Source of the DNA: Muribaculum gordoncarteri
Lineage (GTDB): Bacteria; Bacteroidota; Bacteroidia; Bacteroidales; Muribaculaceae
Reading direction: 5' to 3'
Length of the DNA stretch: 64,000 nt
Assembly: GCF_004803695.1 (NCBI RefSeq)
Contig: NZ_CP039393.1
Coordinates: 1,736,001 to 1,800,000, forward strand
How positions within the stretch are numbered: the stretch's first letter is position 1; every line of letters begins with the position of its first letter. A program made the translations under genes and the position numbers. This document shows, piece by piece, positions 32,558 to 57,691 of the stretch. Below the pieces are notes generated by a model that was given only the letters and a program-made list of their open reading frames with translations, was not told the origin of the DNA and made no database searches.

Positions 32558-32899
32558 ATGTGCCTGAAAGCAAAGTTTGATATAATATACATGGAGGATG
32601 CCCTAAGTTTTCTCCAATCCTTGCCCGAAAAGGTACAAGACAAGATAGCATTCAACATTTCCAAAAGCCGTTATTTTATAGATAAGGAATTGTTCAAGAA
32701 GCTTAATGATGATATTTGGGAGTTCTGCACAAAATATCAAGGCATGACTTACAGGCTATTGGCGTTTTGGGATAATGAGGTCGGAAGTTTGGTCATTGCC
32801 ACTCATGGCTTTATTAAGAAAACCCAAAAGACTCCGATTAATGAGATAGCCAAAGCGGAAGCACTTAGAAAAGAATATTTTAGCAATAAACAGAAATAA
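32558..32899 (+). CDS. HigB/RelE-type toxin (Gp49-like)
   Basis: This 113-residue protein matches the phage-derived Gp49/HigB toxin family: DALSFLQSLPEKVQDKIAFN, LNDDIWEFCTKYQGMTYRLL, AFWDNEVGSLVIATHGFIKK, TQKTPINEIAKAEALRKEY. Such toxins cut mRNA, usually at the ribosome. The partner antitoxin gene starts three bases after its stop, and toxin-first order is typical of HigBA systems. Confidence 0.9.
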   Translation: MCLKAKFDIIYMEDALSFLQSLPEKVQDKIAFNISKSRYFIDKELFKKLNDDIWEFCTKYQGMTYRLLAFWDNEVGSLVIATHGFIKKTQKTPINEIAKAEALRKEYFSNKQK

Positions 32900-32902
32900 G
32901 AT

Positions 32903-33214
32903 ATGAACAAAATAAAACTTTACACTCATGATGAAATGCTCAACCGCGTTGTCGGTGAGATAGGCACTCCGCGTCGAAATGCAATGGAAGCTGAGCTACA
33001 GTCCTATCTTATAGGAGAGGCAATAAAACAAGCCCGTAAAGAAAAGAAACTCACACAATCGCAACTCGGAGAACTTATGGGGGTACAACGCGCACAAGTA
33101 TCTCGAATCGAAAACGGACATAACTTGACAATTGGCACTATATCAAGGGCTTTTAAAGCACTCGGCATGACGGTTTCTCTCAATTGTGGAAACATGAGTA
33201 TAGCGCTTGGATAG
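32903..33214 (+). CDS. HigA-type XRE antitoxin
   Basis: This 103-residue protein has an XRE helix-turn-helix in its C-terminal half (about 50-95): ARKEKKLTQSQLGELMGVQR, AQVSRIENGHNLTIGTISRA. It should neutralise the toxin encoded just upstream and repress the shared promoter (TAACTTTG 32531-32538). Confidence 0.92.
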   Translation: MNKIKLYTHDEMLNRVVGEIGTPRRNAMEAELQSYLIGEAIKQARKEKKLTQSQLGELMGVQRAQVSRIENGHNLTIGTISRAFKALGMTVSLNCGNMSIALG

Positions 33215-33271: not shown

Positions 33272-33274
33272 CAG

Positions 33275-33349
<75 letters not shown>

Positions 33350-33361
33350 ATTTTGATGGTG

Positions 33362-33393
33362 CAAAGGTACAACTATTTTTGTAACGCACCAAA
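33362..33393 (-). promoter_or_regulatory. Promoter of tRNA-His
   Basis: On the minus strand TTTG (33393-33390), a 20-bp spacer and TACCTTTG (33369-33362). It overlaps the end of the capA fragment and is duplicated as an orphan at 35876-35907 by the IS insertion. Confidence 0.8.
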
Positions 33394-33838
33394 TGTTTTG
33401 TACAGAAATTTCTCCAGCGGAGTCATTTTTTGTTGGCGTATTGTAACGGTATCGCGTCCTATGCCTACATTGTGCTTGTTGAATATTCGTTCGGCCGATT
33501 GTGTAAATGCCTTGCACTTAGCCCCGACATCTCCTTTAGTACAGTTTTCGACCGGGACAAGGCGGAAATTTCCCGACGCTGCCGACGGAGGCACCGTAAA
33601 CACCAGTCGGTAATCGGCCGAAGCCACATGCGCCCTACCCTCGTCGTCACGTTCAAGATTCACCTTCACCATGGCACCTCCTCGTGTATCGACGGTCTTC
33701 ATGTTGGATATAAAATTACCGAGTGAATACACGACTACAACGTTGGAGCCGTCGGCACGGCGACGCATTTCCATAGGCTGAATCACATGAGGGTGACCGC
33801 CTATTATCATGTCGACACCTTGTTCAACAAGAAAATCG
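33373..33838 (-). pseudogene. capA 3' fragment left of IS copy 1
   Basis: This is the last 155 codons of capA, duplicated with the target repeat; the full gene is at 35887-37014. The IS left end happens to fuse in frame, giving an open frame from 33891 or from ATG 33864 (MKMQLSNYR) into DFLVEQGVDMIIGGHPHV. The hybrid lacks the N-terminal metal-binding half of the enzyme, so activity is unlikely. Confidence 0.88.
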
Positions 33839-35863
33839 CGGTAGTTTGACAGTTGCATTTTCATGAATCTTTTTTGCTGGCACGCTTGCACGTGTCAAAT
33901 TTTATTACTATCTTTGTAGCACCGTGTAGCAATCAACGGCAGGGCGGCATAATATGAAGCTGAAAATAACCAAGACAAAAAAGACTTCCATCCTTTATGT
34001 ACAGAAGGCATACAGGGACAAGAACGGCAAAAGTACCTCAAGAATCCATGAGCGCCTTGGAACGCTTGAGGAAGTTCGTCAGAGATGCGGAGACAGAGAT
34101 CCTGTTGAATGGGCCAGGGAATATATCGCCAGGCTTACGGCACAGGAGAAGGAGGGCCGGCAGGTGATAATATCACGTCTGTCGCCCACAAAGCTTATTG
34201 AAAAAGGCGAGGCTCAGAGTTGCGAGAGCGGATATCTGTTTCTTAAACGGCTGTACCATAAGGTCGGGATGGACAGGATATGCGAGGCAATCTCACGTAA
34301 ACATAAGTTCGACTTCGATTTCAACAAAGTTCTGGAGCTGATGGTCTACGAACGGCTTTTGAGACCGGCTTCAAAACTAGGTAATTATCGCAGGAGCGGA
34401 AGCTATATCGAGCCTTTTGATATAGAAAAACAGCATATCTACAGGAGTCTGGATATCCTGGACAGACACGGTGAATACATCCAGAAGAGACTTTTCCTTA
34501 ATTCGTCAAAGGTTGTCGAACGGGATACGACCGTCATGTACTATGACTGCACCAACTATTTTTTCGAGAGAGAATCTGCCGATCCGGACTATGTGACAGA
34601 CAAAAAAGGGAACGTTCATGAACGTATACGCAAGTACGGAGTCTCCAAGGAACATCGACCGAACCCCATCGTACAGATGGGTATGTTCATCGACAACTCC
34701 GGCATGCCGGTTGCGATGTGCATCAATCCCGGCAATGCCAACGAACAGACTACCTTGATTCCAACTGAAAAGATTATAGTTGAGAAGATGGGGGTCAGCA
34801 AGATTGTAGTCTGTACAGACGGAGGTCTCTCTTCTGAAGGCAACCGGTCATATAACTCCACAGCAGAAAGATCATTCATAACGGTGCAGTCAATAAAGAA
34901 ACTGGAGGATAATCTCAGGGACTGGTGTCTGGAACCGACAGGATGGAAACTTGTAAAGTCCGACACGGTACAAAAAGACAAGCGGTACCGGGATGCAGAC
35001 GAGGATGAACTGGAGTTTGACCTGACTGATGCCGATACTGCCCGTTATTACGGAGACCGCACTTTTTATCGCGAGCGTTGGATTGTCAATGAAAAGACAA
35101 AGTTCTCTCAAAGATTGATTGTGACATTTTCATACAAATACCGCGACTACCTCCGATTCCTGCGTCAACGCGAGATTGACAAGGCTGACAGCAATGCACG
35201 TGGAAACAGGACATTGACCAAATCTTATAAGAGCCCTGACAGGTTCCTTTCCGAGACCTACGCCACAGAAGACGGCGAGGTTGCGGTATTCAGAACCGTC
35301 TCCCTGAATCTTGACGCCATATCAGAAGAAGAAAAATATGACGGCTTCTATGCGATATGTACGGATCTGTCTGACAATGTGACGAAAATCATCGAACTGA
35401 ACCATAACCGCTGGGAGTCGGAGGATGCCTTCAGGGTCATCAAGACTGACTTCAAGGGTCGACCCGTCTTCGTCTGGACGGCGGAACACATAAGGGCCCA
35501 CTTCATTGTCTGCTTTATCACACTACTGCTCTTCAGAATAATGGAAAAGGAACTGAACTATAAATACACATCCTCCGCTATAATTGAGAAACTACGGTCA
35601 ATGACTATGAACATAGTCAAGGGAGAAGGCTACAAGCCTAACTTCACACGGGATGATCTTACCGATGACCTACATGCCAAAGCCGGCTTCAGACTCGACA
35701 CCGAGATTGTTACTCGTCAGAAAATCAAACAGATTATTGCTAATATTAAAAAAGGTTAAATATAGATAACCCCATTCCAGTGCTACATATATAGACCCTT
35801 TTGCACATGGCTTCACGCCAATGTACAAAAGGGTTTGCTCGTTTTTGGACTGTAAAAGATGGG
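33839..35863 (+). mobile_element. IS1634-family insertion sequence, copy 1 (2,025 bp)
   Basis: The element runs from CGGTAGTTTGACAGT to the sequence whose complement is CCCATCTTTTACAGT. These ends are imperfect inverted repeats sharing TTTnACAGT. The same 2,025 bp occur inverted at 54614-56638, and comparison of both copies fixes the ends. Contents: promoter (TATCTTTG 33909-33916), one transposase gene, and a large hairpin near the right end (35795-35834) that should stop transcription. Confidence 0.93.
33954..35759 (+). CDS. IS1634-family DDE transposase, copy 1
   Basis: This 601-residue transposase has the family signature VMYYDCTNYFFERES (first catalytic Asp198), a second Asp in VVCTDGGLSSEGN, and the Y2-R-E-like motif HNRWESEDAFRVIKTD with the catalytic Glu. 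The N-terminal part (KTSILYVQKAYRDKNGKSTS) fits the IS1634 group of IS4-like elements. It differs from the copy at 54718 at residue 56 (Glu here, Gly there); I saw no other amino acid difference. It is intact and probably active. Confidence 0.95.
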   Translation: MKLKITKTKKTSILYVQKAYRDKNGKSTSRIHERLGTLEEVRQRCGDRDPVEWAREYIARLTAQEKEGRQVIISRLSPTKLIEKGEAQSCESGYLFLKRLYHKVGMDRICEAISRKHKFDFDFNKVLELMVYERLLRPASKLGNYRRSGSYIEPFDIEKQHIYRSLDILDRHGEYIQKRLFLNSSKVVERDTTVMYYDCTNYFFERESADPDYVTDKKGNVHERIRKYGVSKEHRPNPIVQMGMFIDNSGMPVAMCINPGNANEQTTLIPTEKIIVEKMGVSKIVVCTDGGLSSEGNRSYNSTAERSFITVQSIKKLEDNLRDWCLEPTGWKLVKSDTVQKDKRYRDADEDELEFDLTDADTARYYGDRTFYRERWIVNEKTKFSQRLIVTFSYKYRDYLRFLRQREIDKADSNARGNRTLTKSYKSPDRFLSETYATEDGEVAVFRTVSLNLDAISEEEKYDGFYAICTDLSDNVTKIIELNHNRWESEDAFRVIKTDFKGRPVFVWTAEHIRAHFIVCFITLLLFRIMEKELNYKYTSSAIIEKLRSMTMNIVKGEGYKPNFTRDDLTDDLHAKAGFRLDTEIVTRQKIKQIIANIKKG

Positions 35864-36352
35864 ATTTTGATGGTGCAAAGGTACAACTATTTTTGTAACG
35901 CACCAAATGTTTTGTACAGAAATTTCTCCAGCGGAGTCATTTTTTGTTGGCGTATTGTAACGGTATCGCGTCCTATGCCTACATTGTGCTTGTTGAATAT
36001 TCGTTCGGCCGATTGTGTAAATGCCTTGCACTTAGCCCCGACATCTCCTTTAGTACAGTTTTCGACCGGGACAAGGCGGAAATTTCCCGACGCTGCCGAC
36101 GGAGGCACCGTAAACACCAGTCGGTAATCGGCCGAAGCCACATGCGCCCTACCCTCGTCGTCACGTTCAAGATTCACCTTCACCATGGCACCTCCTCGTG
36201 TATCGACGGTCTTCATGTTGGATATAAAATTACCGAGTGAATACACGACTACAACGTTGGAGCCGTCGGCACGGCGACGCATTTCCATAGGCTGAATCAC
36301 ATGAGGGTGACCGCCTATTATCATGTCGACACCTTGTTCAACAAGAAAATCG
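35864..36352. repeat. 489-bp target duplication, right copy (IS copy 1)
   Basis: Copy of 33350-33838. It restores the 3' end of capA, so the gene to the right stays whole. It also carries an orphan copy of the tRNA-His promoter (35876-35907) that points leftward into the IS. Confidence 0.92.
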
Positions 36353-37014
36353 GCAAGCTGACGCTGTGCAGGCGACGGGAGCAGCTGATACTCCAAGCCC
36401 CAGTGCACGCACACCGCTATCAATTCGGCTCCACAGCTTCGGGTGCGAGCTATGTCACGCGCCATCTTGTCACGATCGATATAGTCGACCACGGCATCGC
36501 TGTTTAGCTTTATGCCGTTGGTACCGTAAGTGTAATTGAGAAATCCCACCTTGAAGCCGGCTATGTCGACAATCATCGGCAACATCGAGTCACGCTCGGC
36601 GGCATTGCGATAGGTGCCGAGATGCGTCACATTGCGCTCGTCGAGTTTGTCAAGAGTGCGCACAAGTCCGCGGTCACGCTTGTCGAGAGTGTGATTGTTG
36701 GCTGTAAGCATCATGTCAAATCCGGCATCGGTCAATGCATCAAGATAGGAGTCGGGCGCACTGAAACAAGGATAGCCCGAATAAGGTTCGCCTCCAAGCG
36801 GTGTTTCAAGATTCACCACCGCATAGTCGGCATCGGAGATGTAGGGCGACAGCGCCGTGAAACAGTCGGAATAGTCATACACCCCGTCACCGCGGGAGGC
36901 AGCATCTATCTGCGCCTTATGCTGCATTGCGTCGCCGGCAAATACAATATCGGCCTTTTCGCTGCCGAAAAGCATCGACACGAACGACAACAGCAACAGG
37001 TGCAACAGCGTCAT
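35887..37014 (-). CDS. CapA-family metallophosphatase-like protein
   Basis: This 375-residue protein belongs to the CapA/PgsA poly-gamma-glutamate family with a calcineurin-like fold: IVFAGDAMQHKAQID, ADYAVVNLETPLGG, MLTANNHTLDKRDRGLVRTL, LIAVCVHWGLEYQL, MIIGGHPHVIQPME. The metal ligands Asp, Asn-His and GGHPH are present. An N-terminal hydrophobic stretch suggests export. No other capsule gene is nearby; in Bacteroidetes it is often a lone gene of unknown substrate. It closes the panC-panD-ffh-folD operon, 12 bp after folD, and its last 155 codons lie in the right target repeat. Confidence 0.9.
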   Translation of the reverse strand: MTLLHLLLLSFVSMLFGSEKADIVFAGDAMQHKAQIDAASRGDGVYDYSDCFTALSPYISDADYAVVNLETPLGGEPYSGYPCFSAPDSYLDALTDAGFDMMLTANNHTLDKRDRGLVRTLDKLDERNVTHLGTYRNAAERDSMLPMIVDIAGFKVGFLNYTYGTNGIKLNSDAVVDYIDRDKMARDIARTRSCGAELIAVCVHWGLEYQLLPSPAQRQLADFLVEQGVDMIIGGHPHVIQPMEMRRRADGSNVVVVYSLGNFISNMKTVDTRGGAMVKVNLERDDEGRAHVASADYRLVFTVPPSAASGNFRLVPVENCTKGDVGAKCKAFTQSAERIFNKHNVGIGRDTVTIRQQKMTPLEKFLYKTFGALQK

Positions 37015-53713: not shown

Positions 53714-54499
53714 ATGAACAAAGCCCTGTTTTTTGACATAGACGGCACATTAGTAAGCTTCAAGACCCATGAAGTGCCCGAATCGACAATCGAGGCTCTG
53801 CAAAAAGCCCATGACCGAGGCAACAAGATATTCATATCGACCGGCCGTCCCTATCAGATAATCAACAATCTCGGCCCGCTGCAGCAGCGAGGTCTAATCG
53901 ACGGCTACATAACGATGAACGGTGCCTACTGCTTCATAGGCGACAATGTGCTGTATAAAAGCCCCATTCCGCAGGAAACGGTGAAAAACGTTGCCGAGAT
54001 AAGCCGACGCGAAGGATTCCCCACCATATTTGTAGGCGAAAAGAGCATTAAAGTGTGTCAGCCCGATGAAGAGGTGCGCAAGATATTCTACGAATTTCTG
54101 CATGTCGAAATTCTCCCTGTGGCGACATTCGATGAAGTGGTCGACATCGAAACCTATCAGATGACACCGTTCTTCACCGTTGATTTTGAGCCAAAGATAA
54201 AGCCCTATCTCAATCAATGCGAACTTAACCGCTGGTATCCTACATTTGTCGACATAACGGCCAAAGGCAACACAAAAGCCCACGGGATAAAGGTGATACT
54301 CGACTATCTGCACCTCAGCGTCGACGACGCAATGGCATTCGGCGACGGAGGCAACGACATTCCCATGCTCCTTGCCGCAGGCACAGGAATAGCCATGGGC
54401 AACTCCGACGACAAGGTGAAAGCCGCAGCCGATTATGTGACGACATCGGTCGACGATAACGGAATTGCCAATGCCCTGCAACGGTTTGGCCTAATATAG
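53714..54499 (+). CDS. Cof-type HAD phosphatase
   Basis: This 261-residue protein belongs to the Cof/YbjI HAD subfamily: motif I FFDIDGTLVSFKTHE, motif II IFISTGRPYQI, cap domain residues about 80-185, and motifs III-IV NTKAHGIKVILDYL and AFGDGGNDIPMLLAAG. Such enzymes dephosphorylate sugar phosphates or cofactors such as FMN. The last 30 codons lie in the 204-bp target repeat of IS copy 2, but the gene itself is whole. Confidence 0.93.
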   Translation: MNKALFFDIDGTLVSFKTHEVPESTIEALQKAHDRGNKIFISTGRPYQIINNLGPLQQRGLIDGYITMNGAYCFIGDNVLYKSPIPQETVKNVAEISRREGFPTIFVGEKSIKVCQPDEEVRKIFYEFLHVEILPVATFDEVVDIETYQMTPFFTVDFEPKIKPYLNQCELNRWYPTFVDITAKGNTKAHGIKVILDYLHLSVDDAMAFGDGGNDIPMLLAAGTGIAMGNSDDKVKAAADYVTTSVDDNGIANALQRFGLI

Positions 54500-54613
54500 C
54501 GTGAAATGTCGTCCATAAATGTTAACGTAACATAACTCGTTGCTCTTAAGCCCCAATCGTAGACAAATCGAGTCGAAAGACGACAATAAGATAGCATATT
54601 TGGAAAAAAATCA
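54410..54613. repeat. 204-bp target duplication, left copy (IS copy 2)
   Basis: From GACAAGG at 54410 to AAAAAAATCA at 54613 it recurs at 56639-56842, a constant offset of 2,229. It covers the end of the HAD gene and its downstream spacer. Confidence 0.93.
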
Positions 54614-56638
54614 CCCATCTTTTACAGTCCAAAAACGAGCAAACCCTTTTGTACATTGGCGTGAAGCCATGTGCAAAAGGGTCTATATATGTAGCACTGG
54701 AATGGGGTTATCTATATTTAACCTTTTTTAATATTAGCAATAATCTGTTTGATTTTCTGACGAGTAACAATCTCGGTGTCGAGTCTGAAGCCGGCTTTGG
54801 CATGTAGGTCATCGGTAAGATCATCCCGTGTGAAGTTAGGCTTGTAGCCTTCTCCCTTGACTATGTTCATAGTCATTGACCGTAGTTTCTCAATTATAGC
54901 GGAGGATGTGTATTTATAGTTCAGTTCCTTTTCCATTATTCTGAAGAGCAGTAGTGTGATAAAGCAGACAATGAAGTGGGCCCTTATGTGTTCCGCCGTC
55001 CAGACGAAGACGGGTCGACCCTTGAAGTCAGTCTTGATGACCCTGAAGGCATCCTCCGACTCCCAGCGGTTATGGTTCAGTTCGATGATTTTCGTCACAT
55101 TGTCAGACAGATCCGTACATATCGCATAGAAGCCGTCATATTTTTCTTCTTCTGATATGGCGTCAAGATTCAGGGAGACGGTTCTGAATACCGCAACCTC
55201 GCCGTCTTCTGTGGCGTAGGTCTCGGAAAGGAACCTGTCAGGGCTCTTATAAGATTTGGTCAATGTCCTGTTTCCACGTGCATTGCTGTCAGCCTTGTCA
55301 ATCTCGCGTTGACGCAGGAATCGGAGGTAGTCGCGGTATTTGTATGAAAATGTCACAATCAATCTTTGAGAGAACTTTGTCTTTTCATTGACAATCCAAC
55401 GCTCGCGATAAAAAGTGCGGTCTCCGTAATAACGGGCAGTATCGGCATCAGTCAGGTCAAACTCCAGTTCATCCTCGTCTGCATCCCGGTACCGCTTGTC
55501 TTTTTGTACCGTGTCGGACTTTACAAGTTTCCATCCTGTCGGTTCCAGACACCAGTCCCTGAGATTATCCTCCAGTTTCTTTATTGACTGCACCGTTATG
55601 AATGATCTTTCTGCTGTGGAGTTATATGACCGGTTGCCTTCAGAAGAGAGACCTCCGTCTGTACAGACTACAATCTTGCTGACCCCCATCTTCTCAACTA
55701 TAATCTTTTCAGTTGGAATCAAGGTAGTCTGTTCGTTGGCATTGCCGGGATTGATGCACATCGCAACCGGCATGCCGGAGTTGTCGATGAACATACCCAT
55801 CTGTACGATGGGGTTCGGTCGATGTTCCTTGGAGACTCCGTACTTGCGTATACGTTCATGAACGTTCCCTTTTTTGTCTGTCACATAGTCCGGATCGGCA
55901 GATTCTCTCTCGAAAAAATAGTTGGTGCAGTCATAGTACATGACGGTCGTATCCCGTTCGACAACCTTTGACGAATTAAGGAAAAGTCTCTTCTGGATGT
56001 ATTCACCGTGTCTGTCCAGGATATCCAGACTCCTGTAGATATGCTGTTTTTCTATATCAAAAGGCTCGATATAGCTTCCGCTCCTGCGATAATTACCTAG
56101 TTTTGAAGCCGGTCTCAAAAGCCGTTCGTAGACCATCAGCTCCAGAACTTTGTTGAAATCGAAGTCGAACTTATGTTTACGTGAGATTGCCTCGCATATC
56201 CTGTCCATCCCGACCTTATGGTACAGCCGTTTAAGAAACAGATATCCGCTCTCGCAACTCTGAGCCTCGCCTTTTTCAATAAGCTTTGTGGGCGACAGAC
56301 GTGATATTATCACCTGCCGGCCCTCCTTCTCCTGTGCCGTAAGCCTGGCGATATATCCCCTGGCCCATTCAACAGGATCTCTGTCTCCGCATCTCTGACG
56401 AACTTCCTCAAGCGTTCCAAGGCGCTCATGGATTCTTGAGGTACTTTTGCCGTTCTTGTCCCTGTATGCCTTCTGTACATAAAGGATGGAAGTCTTTTTT
56501 GTCTTGGTTATTTTCAGCTTCATATTATGCCGCCCTGCCGTTGATTGCTACACGGTGCTACAAAGATAGTAATAAAATTTGACACGTGCAAGCGTGCCAG
56601 CAAAAAAGATTCATGAAAATGCAACTGTCAAACTACCG
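54614..56638 (-). mobile_element. IS1634-family insertion sequence, copy 2 (2,025 bp)
   Basis: This is the inverted equivalent of 33839-35863, with the same length and ends (CCCATCTTTTACAGT at the left, complement of CGGTAGTTTGACAGT at the right). One coding difference (codon 56) was seen. It sits two bases before the -7 box of the GT5-like gene (56844-56851), which survives because the upstream sequence was duplicated. Confidence 0.94.
54718..56523 (-). CDS. IS1634-family DDE transposase, copy 2
   Basis: This 601-residue transposase carries the same motifs as the one at 33954 (YYDCTNYFFE, VVCTDGGLSSEGN, HNRWESEDAFRVIKTD). Residue 56 is Gly instead of Glu, from a single A-to-G change. It is intact. 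Two near-identical intact copies with unscarred duplications point to recent activity. Confidence 0.95.
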   Translation of the reverse strand: MKLKITKTKKTSILYVQKAYRDKNGKSTSRIHERLGTLEEVRQRCGDRDPVEWARGYIARLTAQEKEGRQVIISRLSPTKLIEKGEAQSCESGYLFLKRLYHKVGMDRICEAISRKHKFDFDFNKVLELMVYERLLRPASKLGNYRRSGSYIEPFDIEKQHIYRSLDILDRHGEYIQKRLFLNSSKVVERDTTVMYYDCTNYFFERESADPDYVTDKKGNVHERIRKYGVSKEHRPNPIVQMGMFIDNSGMPVAMCINPGNANEQTTLIPTEKIIVEKMGVSKIVVCTDGGLSSEGNRSYNSTAERSFITVQSIKKLEDNLRDWCLEPTGWKLVKSDTVQKDKRYRDADEDELEFDLTDADTARYYGDRTFYRERWIVNEKTKFSQRLIVTFSYKYRDYLRFLRQREIDKADSNARGNRTLTKSYKSPDRFLSETYATEDGEVAVFRTVSLNLDAISEEEKYDGFYAICTDLSDNVTKIIELNHNRWESEDAFRVIKTDFKGRPVFVWTAEHIRAHFIVCFITLLLFRIMEKELNYKYTSSAIIEKLRSMTMNIVKGEGYKPNFTRDDLTDDLHAKAGFRLDTEIVTRQKIKQIIANIKKG

Positions 56639-56728
56639 GACAAGGTGAAAGCCGCAGCCGATTATGTGACGACATCGGTCGACGATAACGGAATTGCCAA
56701 TGCCCTGCAACGGTTTGGCCTAATATAG
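56639..56728 (+). pseudogene. HAD gene 3' fragment right of IS copy 2
   Basis: This repeats the final 30 codons, including the stop, of the HAD gene at 53714-54499. It has no start of its own and is a by-product of the target duplication. Confidence 0.9.
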
Positions 56729-56842
56729 CGTGAAATGTCGTCCATAAATGTTAACGTAACATAACTCGTTGCTCTTAAGCCCCAATCGTAGACAAATCGA
56801 GTCGAAAGACGACAATAAGATAGCATATTTGGAAAAAAATCA
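56639..56842. repeat. 204-bp target duplication, right copy (IS copy 2)
   Basis: Copy of 54410-54613. It carries the last codons of the HAD gene (through 56728) as a dead fragment and the natural upstream flank of the GT5-like gene. Confidence 0.93.
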
Positions 56843-56881
56843 TTATCTTTGCACACAATTCTATAGTCAATCTTAAAATTA

Positions 56882-57691
56882 ATGGATATCAACAAGGTTC
56901 TATACATTTCTCAGGAAATCACGCCTTACCTACCCAGCACTCCCATGTCGGAGATTTCCCAGAAGTTGCCGCAAGGCATACAGGAACGCGGCTCGGAAGT
57001 GCGCACATTCATGCCTAAATACGGGTGCATAAAGGAGCGTCGCAATCAACTCCATGAGGTGATTCGACTTTCAGGAATGAACATAATCATCGACGACTCC
57101 GACCATCCCCTCATCATAAAAGTCGCCACGCTTCAACCGGCCAGAATGCAGGTCTACTTCATCGACAACGAGGATTACTTCCTGCGCGGACAATCGTCCA
57201 AGGACCTTGAAATAAGGCTGACTCCCGAGGACAACGACGAGCGCATCATGTTCTACGTAAGAGGCGTGGTCGAAACCGTAAAGAAACTGCGTTGGGATCC
57301 CACGTTGGTTCATGCTTCGGGATGGGTATCGGCTCTCGCTCCCATATACTTGAAGCGAGTTTATTCCGACGACCCGTCGTTCCGCAACTCCAAGGTGGTC
57401 TACTCGGTGTTTGACGACAAATTTGACGGAACGCTCGACCCCCGCATGGTGGAAAAGCTGAAGATGGAAGGCTTCACCGACGAAGACCTGAAATCGATAT
57501 CCTCGGCTCCGGTCGACTACGTGGCCTTGAACAAGCTGGCTATTGACTATTCCGACGGTGTGATTCAGGCATCGCCCGAAATTGATTCCGAGATATTGAG
57601 CTACATCAAGGAATCGGGCAAGCCGTTCCTCCCCTATCCCGGCGAAACGGAATATATCGACAAGTACGCCGAATTCTACAATTCGCTCTAA
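56882..57691 (+). CDS. Glycogen/starch synthase N-terminal domain protein (GT5-like, single domain)
   Basis: This 269-residue protein matches the N-terminal half of GT5 glycogen synthase: KVLYISQEITPYLPSTPMSE, GSEVRTFMPKYGCIKERRNQ, VHASGWVSALAPIYLKRVY, VDYVALNKLAIDYSDGVIQA. The C-terminal half with the ADP-glucose site is absent, and full enzymes are about 470 residues, so it may not be a synthase on its own. The usual KxGGL loop is replaced by TPMSEISQKLP. The -7 box is TATCTTTG at 56844-56851. It is followed by a DUF4270 lipoprotein gene 26 bp away, a neighbour pair seen in Bacteroidetes. Confidence 0.82.
   Translation: MDINKVLYISQEITPYLPSTPMSEISQKLPQGIQERGSEVRTFMPKYGCIKERRNQLHEVIRLSGMNIIIDDSDHPLIIKVATLQPARMQVYFIDNEDYFLRGQSSKDLEIRLTPEDNDERIMFYVRGVVETVKKLRWDPTLVHASGWVSALAPIYLKRVYSDDPSFRNSKVVYSVFDDKFDGTLDPRMVEKLKMEGFTDEDLKSISSAPVDYVALNKLAIDYSDGVIQASPEIDSEILSYIKESGKPFLPYPGETEYIDKYAEFYNSL

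Follow-up and report, generated by a model that had tools for sequence, protein, structure and literature searches.

An IS1634-family insertion sequence of Muribaculum gordoncarteri that probably targets promoters and makes promoter-anchored duplications

The IS1634 family is described as comprising insertion sequences of about 1.5–2.0 kb that in general generate AT-rich direct repeats of 5–6 bp (PMC2266710, family passages). The same passages give long direct repeats of variable length, 8–514 bp, for IS1634 and IS1549, and report no mechanistic model for them as of 2008. Other described elements possess an IS1634-family transposase like the one considered here, but 6-bp direct repeats are reported for ISGka5 and ISPfe2 in the accounts of those elements, and 6-bp terminal words for Acidiphilium IS1634-1 in the relevant part of PMC4549789. 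The element described below shares both family and long, variable-length direct repeats with IS1634 of Mycoplasma mycoides and IS1549 of Mycobacterium smegmatis. In contrast to this element, which appears to be promoter-anchored, promoter anchoring goes unmentioned for IS1634 and IS1549 in the passages of PMC2266710 that treat them. A search of titles and abstracts in the open-licence literature found no report of promoter targeting by the IS1634 family.

Short target repeats are made by the yeast retrotransposons Ty1 and Ty3 and by Tf1 of fission yeast. These elements insert upstream of tRNA genes or at promoters, and their targeting involves contact with transcription or DNA-binding proteins, according to the part of PMC5371812 on target choice. 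As eukaryotic retrotransposons they are unrelated to the bacterial element and serve as an analogy only; the trait of insertion at promoters is one that the bacterial element appears to display as a pattern in its DNA sequence.

The window, a stretch of 64,000 nucleotides of the M. gordoncarteri genome, contains an insertion sequence of 2,025 bp at 33839–35863 (+ strand), slightly longer than the family range, with borders set by the maximal direct repeats and ends common to the other copies in the genome. The ends, CGGTAGTTTGACAG and CCCATCTTTTACAG, begin CGG and CCC, with the C expected at family ends, and the right end (IRR) lies beside the 3′ end of the transposase gene. The first-pass annotation had called this an IS1634-type element, and the call is borne out by the 601-aa transposase (33954–35759, + strand), which matches the NCBIfam profile NF033559 'IS1634 family transposase' with 316.2 bits (cut-off 100, E 4.4e-94) as well as Pfam DDE_Tnp_1 (E 1.5e-5). 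Among 22 aligned sequences Asp198, Asp289, Glu490, and Lys497 are invariant and Arg486 and Asn483 nearly so, giving the family motif of a DDE triad with R-(3)-E-(6)-K, in which Asn483 replaces the Tyr of the IS4 YREK motif. The likely catalytic residues are assigned from this motif. A profile search of solved structures with the transposase gave 0 matches at E values up to 1. The transposase gene may have its own −7 box, TATCTTTG, at 33909–33916 (+ strand), as a motif match.

The element is bordered by two copies of the same 489 bp (33350–33838 and 35864–36352), which are identical at 489 of 489 positions, with the 2,025 bp in between; the maximal repeat stops exactly at these limits. The left, gene-proximal copy retains the promoter of the gene whose promoter is the apparent target, a tRNA-His (GTG) gene at 33274–33348 (− strand, ARAGORN). 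The predicted −7 box of this promoter, TACCTTTG, is found at 33362–33369 (− strand), 12 nt inside the duplication, with a TTG 20 nt upstream of it and a second copy of the box at 35876–35883. The right copy of the duplication retains the end of a PGA_cap gene (35887–37014, − strand, 375 aa), whose 3′ part is duplicated and which is thereby left intact. Just past the tRNA-His gene, at 32558–33214, a Gp49-like (DUF891) gene is followed by an HTH gene, a pair resembling a toxin-antitoxin module.

Both 489-bp copies align to one place, with 69–74% identity, in two genomes of the same genus (G009, locus L082; G002, locus L083), where the empty site holds a single copy directly after tRNA-His. A third relative (G001) also shows one place, with no tRNA found within the stretch taken. 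No uninterrupted relative with two 489-bp copies was found among the three relatives aligned.

The genome of origin contains 19 full copies of the element, each 0–1 base from the window copy, and partial pieces in two composites. One full copy (L019) was left out as it sits in a contig-end stretch whose sequence recurs identically at two other places on that contig. Long duplications were found at all 18 retained insertions, span 58–511 bp, and differ in length at each; exact abutting repeats flank 17 copies (58, 90, 124, 128, 199, 204, 219, 240, 272, 388, 396, 398, 408, 409, 489, 509, and 511 bp). These lengths depart from the 5–6 bp repeats general to the family, a departure that is compatible with membership since PMC2266710, in its family passages, itself gives long repeats for IS1634 and IS1549. 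The second copy in the window (L010) lies at 54614–56638 (− strand, 1 mismatch) between identical, maximal repeats of 204 bp, one beside the IRR (54410–54613) and one gene-proximal (56639–56842). Beside this insertion is a candidate −7 box, TATCTTTG, at 56844–56851 (+ strand), followed by a 269-aa ORF at 56882.

Several rearranged loci and assembly features were also observed. In the composite L006 (L023, G000:C1:592240–595254) the first 990 bp of one copy are fused to a full copy, flanked by a single 106-bp repeat, a structure that could have arisen by nested insertion and later recombination. At L024 (G000:C1:2166997–2171555) the insertions L001 (272 bp) and L008 (509 bp) stand in series with a common right junction. 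The promoter there seems to have been employed twice, the rebuilt promoter being used again. The contig-end sequence (from 3292091; G000:C1, L021, L022, L081) equals C1:13026–27805, and C1:7796–13100 equals C1:588000–593304 (the L023 region); these repeated stretches are probably an assembly overlap or chimera.

It is extremely improbable that the 489 bp were duplicated beforehand, or through recombination between IS copies, and not by the insertion. The stacked copies (L001 with L008) and the composite L006 do prove that rearrangement occurs, but the window repeats abut the element exactly with zero mismatches, only one copy exists in G009 and G002, and the length differs from one insertion to the next across all 18. 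The earlier proposal that the 489 bp are a target duplication is thus upheld by the mismatch-free alignment of the two copies, by the single copy recovered when empty sites were sought in relatives, and by the other lengths at other insertions. What the analysis adds to that proposal is that the duplication is, as judged from its junctions, anchored, with one end at a promoter −7/−10 box and only the other end varying.

The evidence for anchoring comes from the right junctions, which were counted at 17 distinct sites (L008 was omitted, its right site being that of L001). For the main Bacteroides sigma factor the consensus is TAnnTTTG at −7 with TTTG near −33 (PMC7366714, consensus as given there). 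A TAnnTTTG box is present at the right junction, on the strand opposite the transposase and in a single orientation, with an exact match at 14 of the 17 sites and one mismatch, judged by eye, at the other three (L007, L014, L018); random positions in the window give 1.4% as the null frequency, AT-matched ones 3.0%, and the insertion regions as a whole 2.2%. The target is AT-rich at the start of the right junction (the fifth base is T at 16 of the 17 distinct sites) but not at that of the left junction, where all 18 insertions have a pyrimidine at position −2. The duplicated segment lies upstream in every one of the 18. The position of the box end varies within 12 nt on either side of the junction, with no single fixed place, and a TTG 19–21 nt upstream accompanies just 12 of 20 boxes (null 16/52, p 0.006). 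Downstream, a same-strand ORF dominates at 16 of the 17 sites, the 17th being the tRNA-His gene of the window.

Relatives of the element were sought in other genomes. In a sample of the order, one of 295 genomes, the genome of origin, matched the transposase alignment at E ≤ 1e-100; in another sample, near-identical or about 40% relatives occur in G206, G173, and G198. The copy in G206, from the same taxonomic family, is near-identical but split. In G198, which belongs to another genus of that family, a 36%-identical element has duplications of 111 and 252 bp, besides two imperfect ones of 164 bp (2 mismatches) and 873 bp (3 mismatches); all four copies have TAnnTTT|G at the junction. One G198 copy carries a tandem duplication of its left end (37 bp; L077:4749–4822). 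Across 84,980 species scanned, 463 relatives were detected, of which the best 80 were retained, many of them from Bacillota.

Outside Bacteroidota, 112 ORFs yielded 56 junction sites after removal of 26 without the IRR motif, 24 duplicates, and 6 with short flanks. In these sites, mostly from Bacillota, the 6 nt abutting the IRR are TATAAT in 24 of 56 and within one mismatch of it in 40 of 56, and the last base before the IRR is T in 54 of 56. The corresponding null frequencies (exact; at most one mismatch) are 0.07% and 1.0%, rising to 0.6% and 8.0% for AT-matched positions and 0.2% and 1.8% for non-coding DNA. A TTGACA-like −35 element at 16–18 bp accompanies 26 of the 40 (null 14.6%; non-coding 17.7%), and a TGn extension, as in extended −10 promoters, 19 of the 40 (null 8.3%). 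A same-strand ORF dominates downstream at 31 of 36 sites of the other elements.

At the left junctions exact TATAAT was found in 0 of 30 with both strands checked. Allowing one mismatch, TATAAT-like words occur on one strand in 0 of 30 and on the second strand in 1 of 30. The opposite strand at the right junction carries TATAAT within 8 nt exactly in 6 of 30 and with one mismatch in 17 of 30, and in 7 of 27 within 14 nt; self-complementary overlap of the word accounts for part of this.

A later set of 398 genomes of the phylum of these Bacillota-type relatives, 30 of them matching, was analyzed with the junction rule unchanged. From its 39 ORFs, 26 sites remained once 7 duplicates, 4 lacking the motif, 1 short one, and 1 already used were removed; 11 of the 26 come from one genome, G1300. 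TATAAT is exact in 10 of 26 and within one mismatch in 16 of 26, 8 of these 16 having a −35 element. Junctions at two or more mismatches from TATAAT amount to 16 of 56 in the Bacillota-type set and 10 of 26 in the later one. Duplications of 56–352 bp were found in 22 of the 26, with none found for L286, L289, L295, and L333.

Among sites with duplications, a cross-test of the two motifs gave TAnnTTTG at 20 of 24 and TATAAT at 2 of 24 in Bacteroidota, versus 0 of 27 and 15 of 27 in the others. This comparison used 27 of 30 other sites, those omitted being L091, L202, and L244 (imperfect repeat; nested beside another IS; N runs). Of 53 transposases with duplications placed in a tree, those of the promoter-targeting elements make up a single clade (100/100, 29 rows); the Bacteroidota elements cluster in the tree, but weakly (92/69).

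An ordinary insertion sequence with random AT-rich targets and a long variable duplication, found at promoters through AT-rich non-coding DNA and the loss of in-gene insertions, would account for the AT-rich right junctions, and distant branches do have long duplications without promoter boxes. This explanation is nevertheless very improbable, as it is contradicted by the matched nulls, both at the element's own sites (3.0% against 14 of 17) and outside Bacteroidota (0.6% AT-matched and 0.2% non-coding against 24 of 56), and by the single fixed orientation. Very probably, then, this IS1634-family element targets promoters and makes a promoter-anchored duplication. The junctions show the right end directly at the predicted host −7/−10 box or no more than about 12 nt from it, in one orientation, and the left end joined 58–511 bp upstream, in DNA that appears to be non-promoter, with the DNA between duplicated. 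As a result the gene-proximal copy holds the promoter and its upstream DNA while the other copy holds the upstream neighbor, and the duplication would rebuild the promoter and leave neighboring genes intact.

How the promoter is recognized is a separate question. TAnnTTTG is the motif in Bacteroidota and TATAAT elsewhere; from this dependence on the host we infer that the target is a promoter melted or occupied by RNA polymerase holoenzyme, and with moderate confidence RNA polymerase or the open promoter is proposed as the guide. Alternatively, the transposase may read the −10/−7 word directly as DNA, its specificity having co-evolved with the host consensus and RNA polymerase playing no role. 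The register is indeed fixed in most Bacillota junctions (the last T) and in all four G198 copies, and given that the Bacteroidota elements fall together in the tree, if weakly, a single switch of specificity would suffice. Direct reading is nonetheless rather unlikely: −35 and TGn elements occur beside the word more often than expected, even when compared with words in non-coding DNA, the junction of the M. gordoncarteri element shifts relative to the box, and the downstream genes are oriented as with real promoters. Guidance by RNA polymerase is favored over direct reading on account of the −35 and TGn enrichment, the host-dependent motif, and the loose offset in the element's own genome.

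Long duplications extend beyond the promoter-targeting clade. A search of 156 transposase ORFs flanked on each side by 700 nt or more found long repeats for 95 and none for 61, in a count where loci of one insertion may be counted repeatedly. Bacteroidota elements with transposases of about 500–580 aa have duplications of 34–630 bp (the 630 bp being cut by the locus end). A relative in Mycoplasmopsis gallopavonis has repeats of 44–400 bp in 8 of 10 copies, 2 being unclear, and a −10 box is not evident by eye. The distant branches L167–L193 and L255–L268 show long repeats mostly without a promoter box. Long duplication is, on this sequence survey, the wider trait, and promoter anchoring is apparently confined to a branch. 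As duplications are long even where, in the distant branches, promoter boxes are mostly missing, promoter capture alone does not explain the length, and the two traits are separable.

Outside the promoter clade, a TATAAT-like word is found at a junction in 6 of 29 insertions. Three of these are the copies of Sporomusa G731 (L239, L240, L241), where TATAA|T stands at the left end in 3 of 3; the others are at the right end of L234 and the left ends of L055 and L190. The end that takes the promoter may differ between branches. In a sister branch from the later set, L322, L324, and L325 look alike by eye, others less so. Some right junctions of the distant branches read GGCTTTTT|. Terminators were considered as the target of these branches and rejected, hairpins not being enriched over 29 insertions (median percentiles 0.48–0.63 of the null); T-runs are only mildly raised, at 10 of 58 junctions reading towards the IS (null 3.2%). 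The RNA polymerase footprint was set aside as a minimum duplication length, branches without promoter boxes showing a similar spread. Of 74 duplications in the promoter branch, 4 are shorter than 50 bp (33, 35, 42, and 46).

Based on these observations, the following mechanism is proposed. The transposase–IRR complex would attack a promoter that is melted or occupied by RNA polymerase holoenzyme. With DDE chemistry of the usual kind, the template strand would receive the IRR and the opposite strand the left end; with TATAAT set at −12 to −7, the IRR 3′ end would attack the template strand near −7/−6. The second end would then act on upstream DNA, uncoupled from the first, and synthesis across the long stagger would yield the duplication. 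It is reasonably likely, though by no means certain, that the target is the host transcription-initiation complex as a whole, the IRR hitting the open promoter and the uncoupled end landing upstream so that the target is regenerated and both neighbors stay intact.

For the second step a variant can be envisaged, in which the target 3′ end freed by IRR joining primes displacement synthesis upstream until the advancing fork captures the left end; duplication length would then measure the time before capture. The variable length and fixed polarity agree with this variant, as does, by analogy, the binding of the replication clamp by the transposase of another family member (described in part of PMC4549789), but two independent attacks followed by gap filling fit the data equally, and the variant is put forward tentatively, as a possibility of some weight. 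Wherever the repeat includes the box, the promoter copy at the IRR would be expected to fire antisense into the transposase gene. Additionally, recombination between the long repeats would excise the element with no scar.

The element thus appears to be a member of a known family with a new mode of target choice. Separating the two ends, one fixed at the promoter and one free upstream, makes the question of the long repeats testable, and a target word that differs between hosts in step with their promoter code suggests guidance by RNA polymerase. By analogy, the pattern suggests a safe-landing strategy similar to that of the yeast Ty elements. The element may also offer a possible tool for the insertion of DNA at promoters with genes left unbroken.
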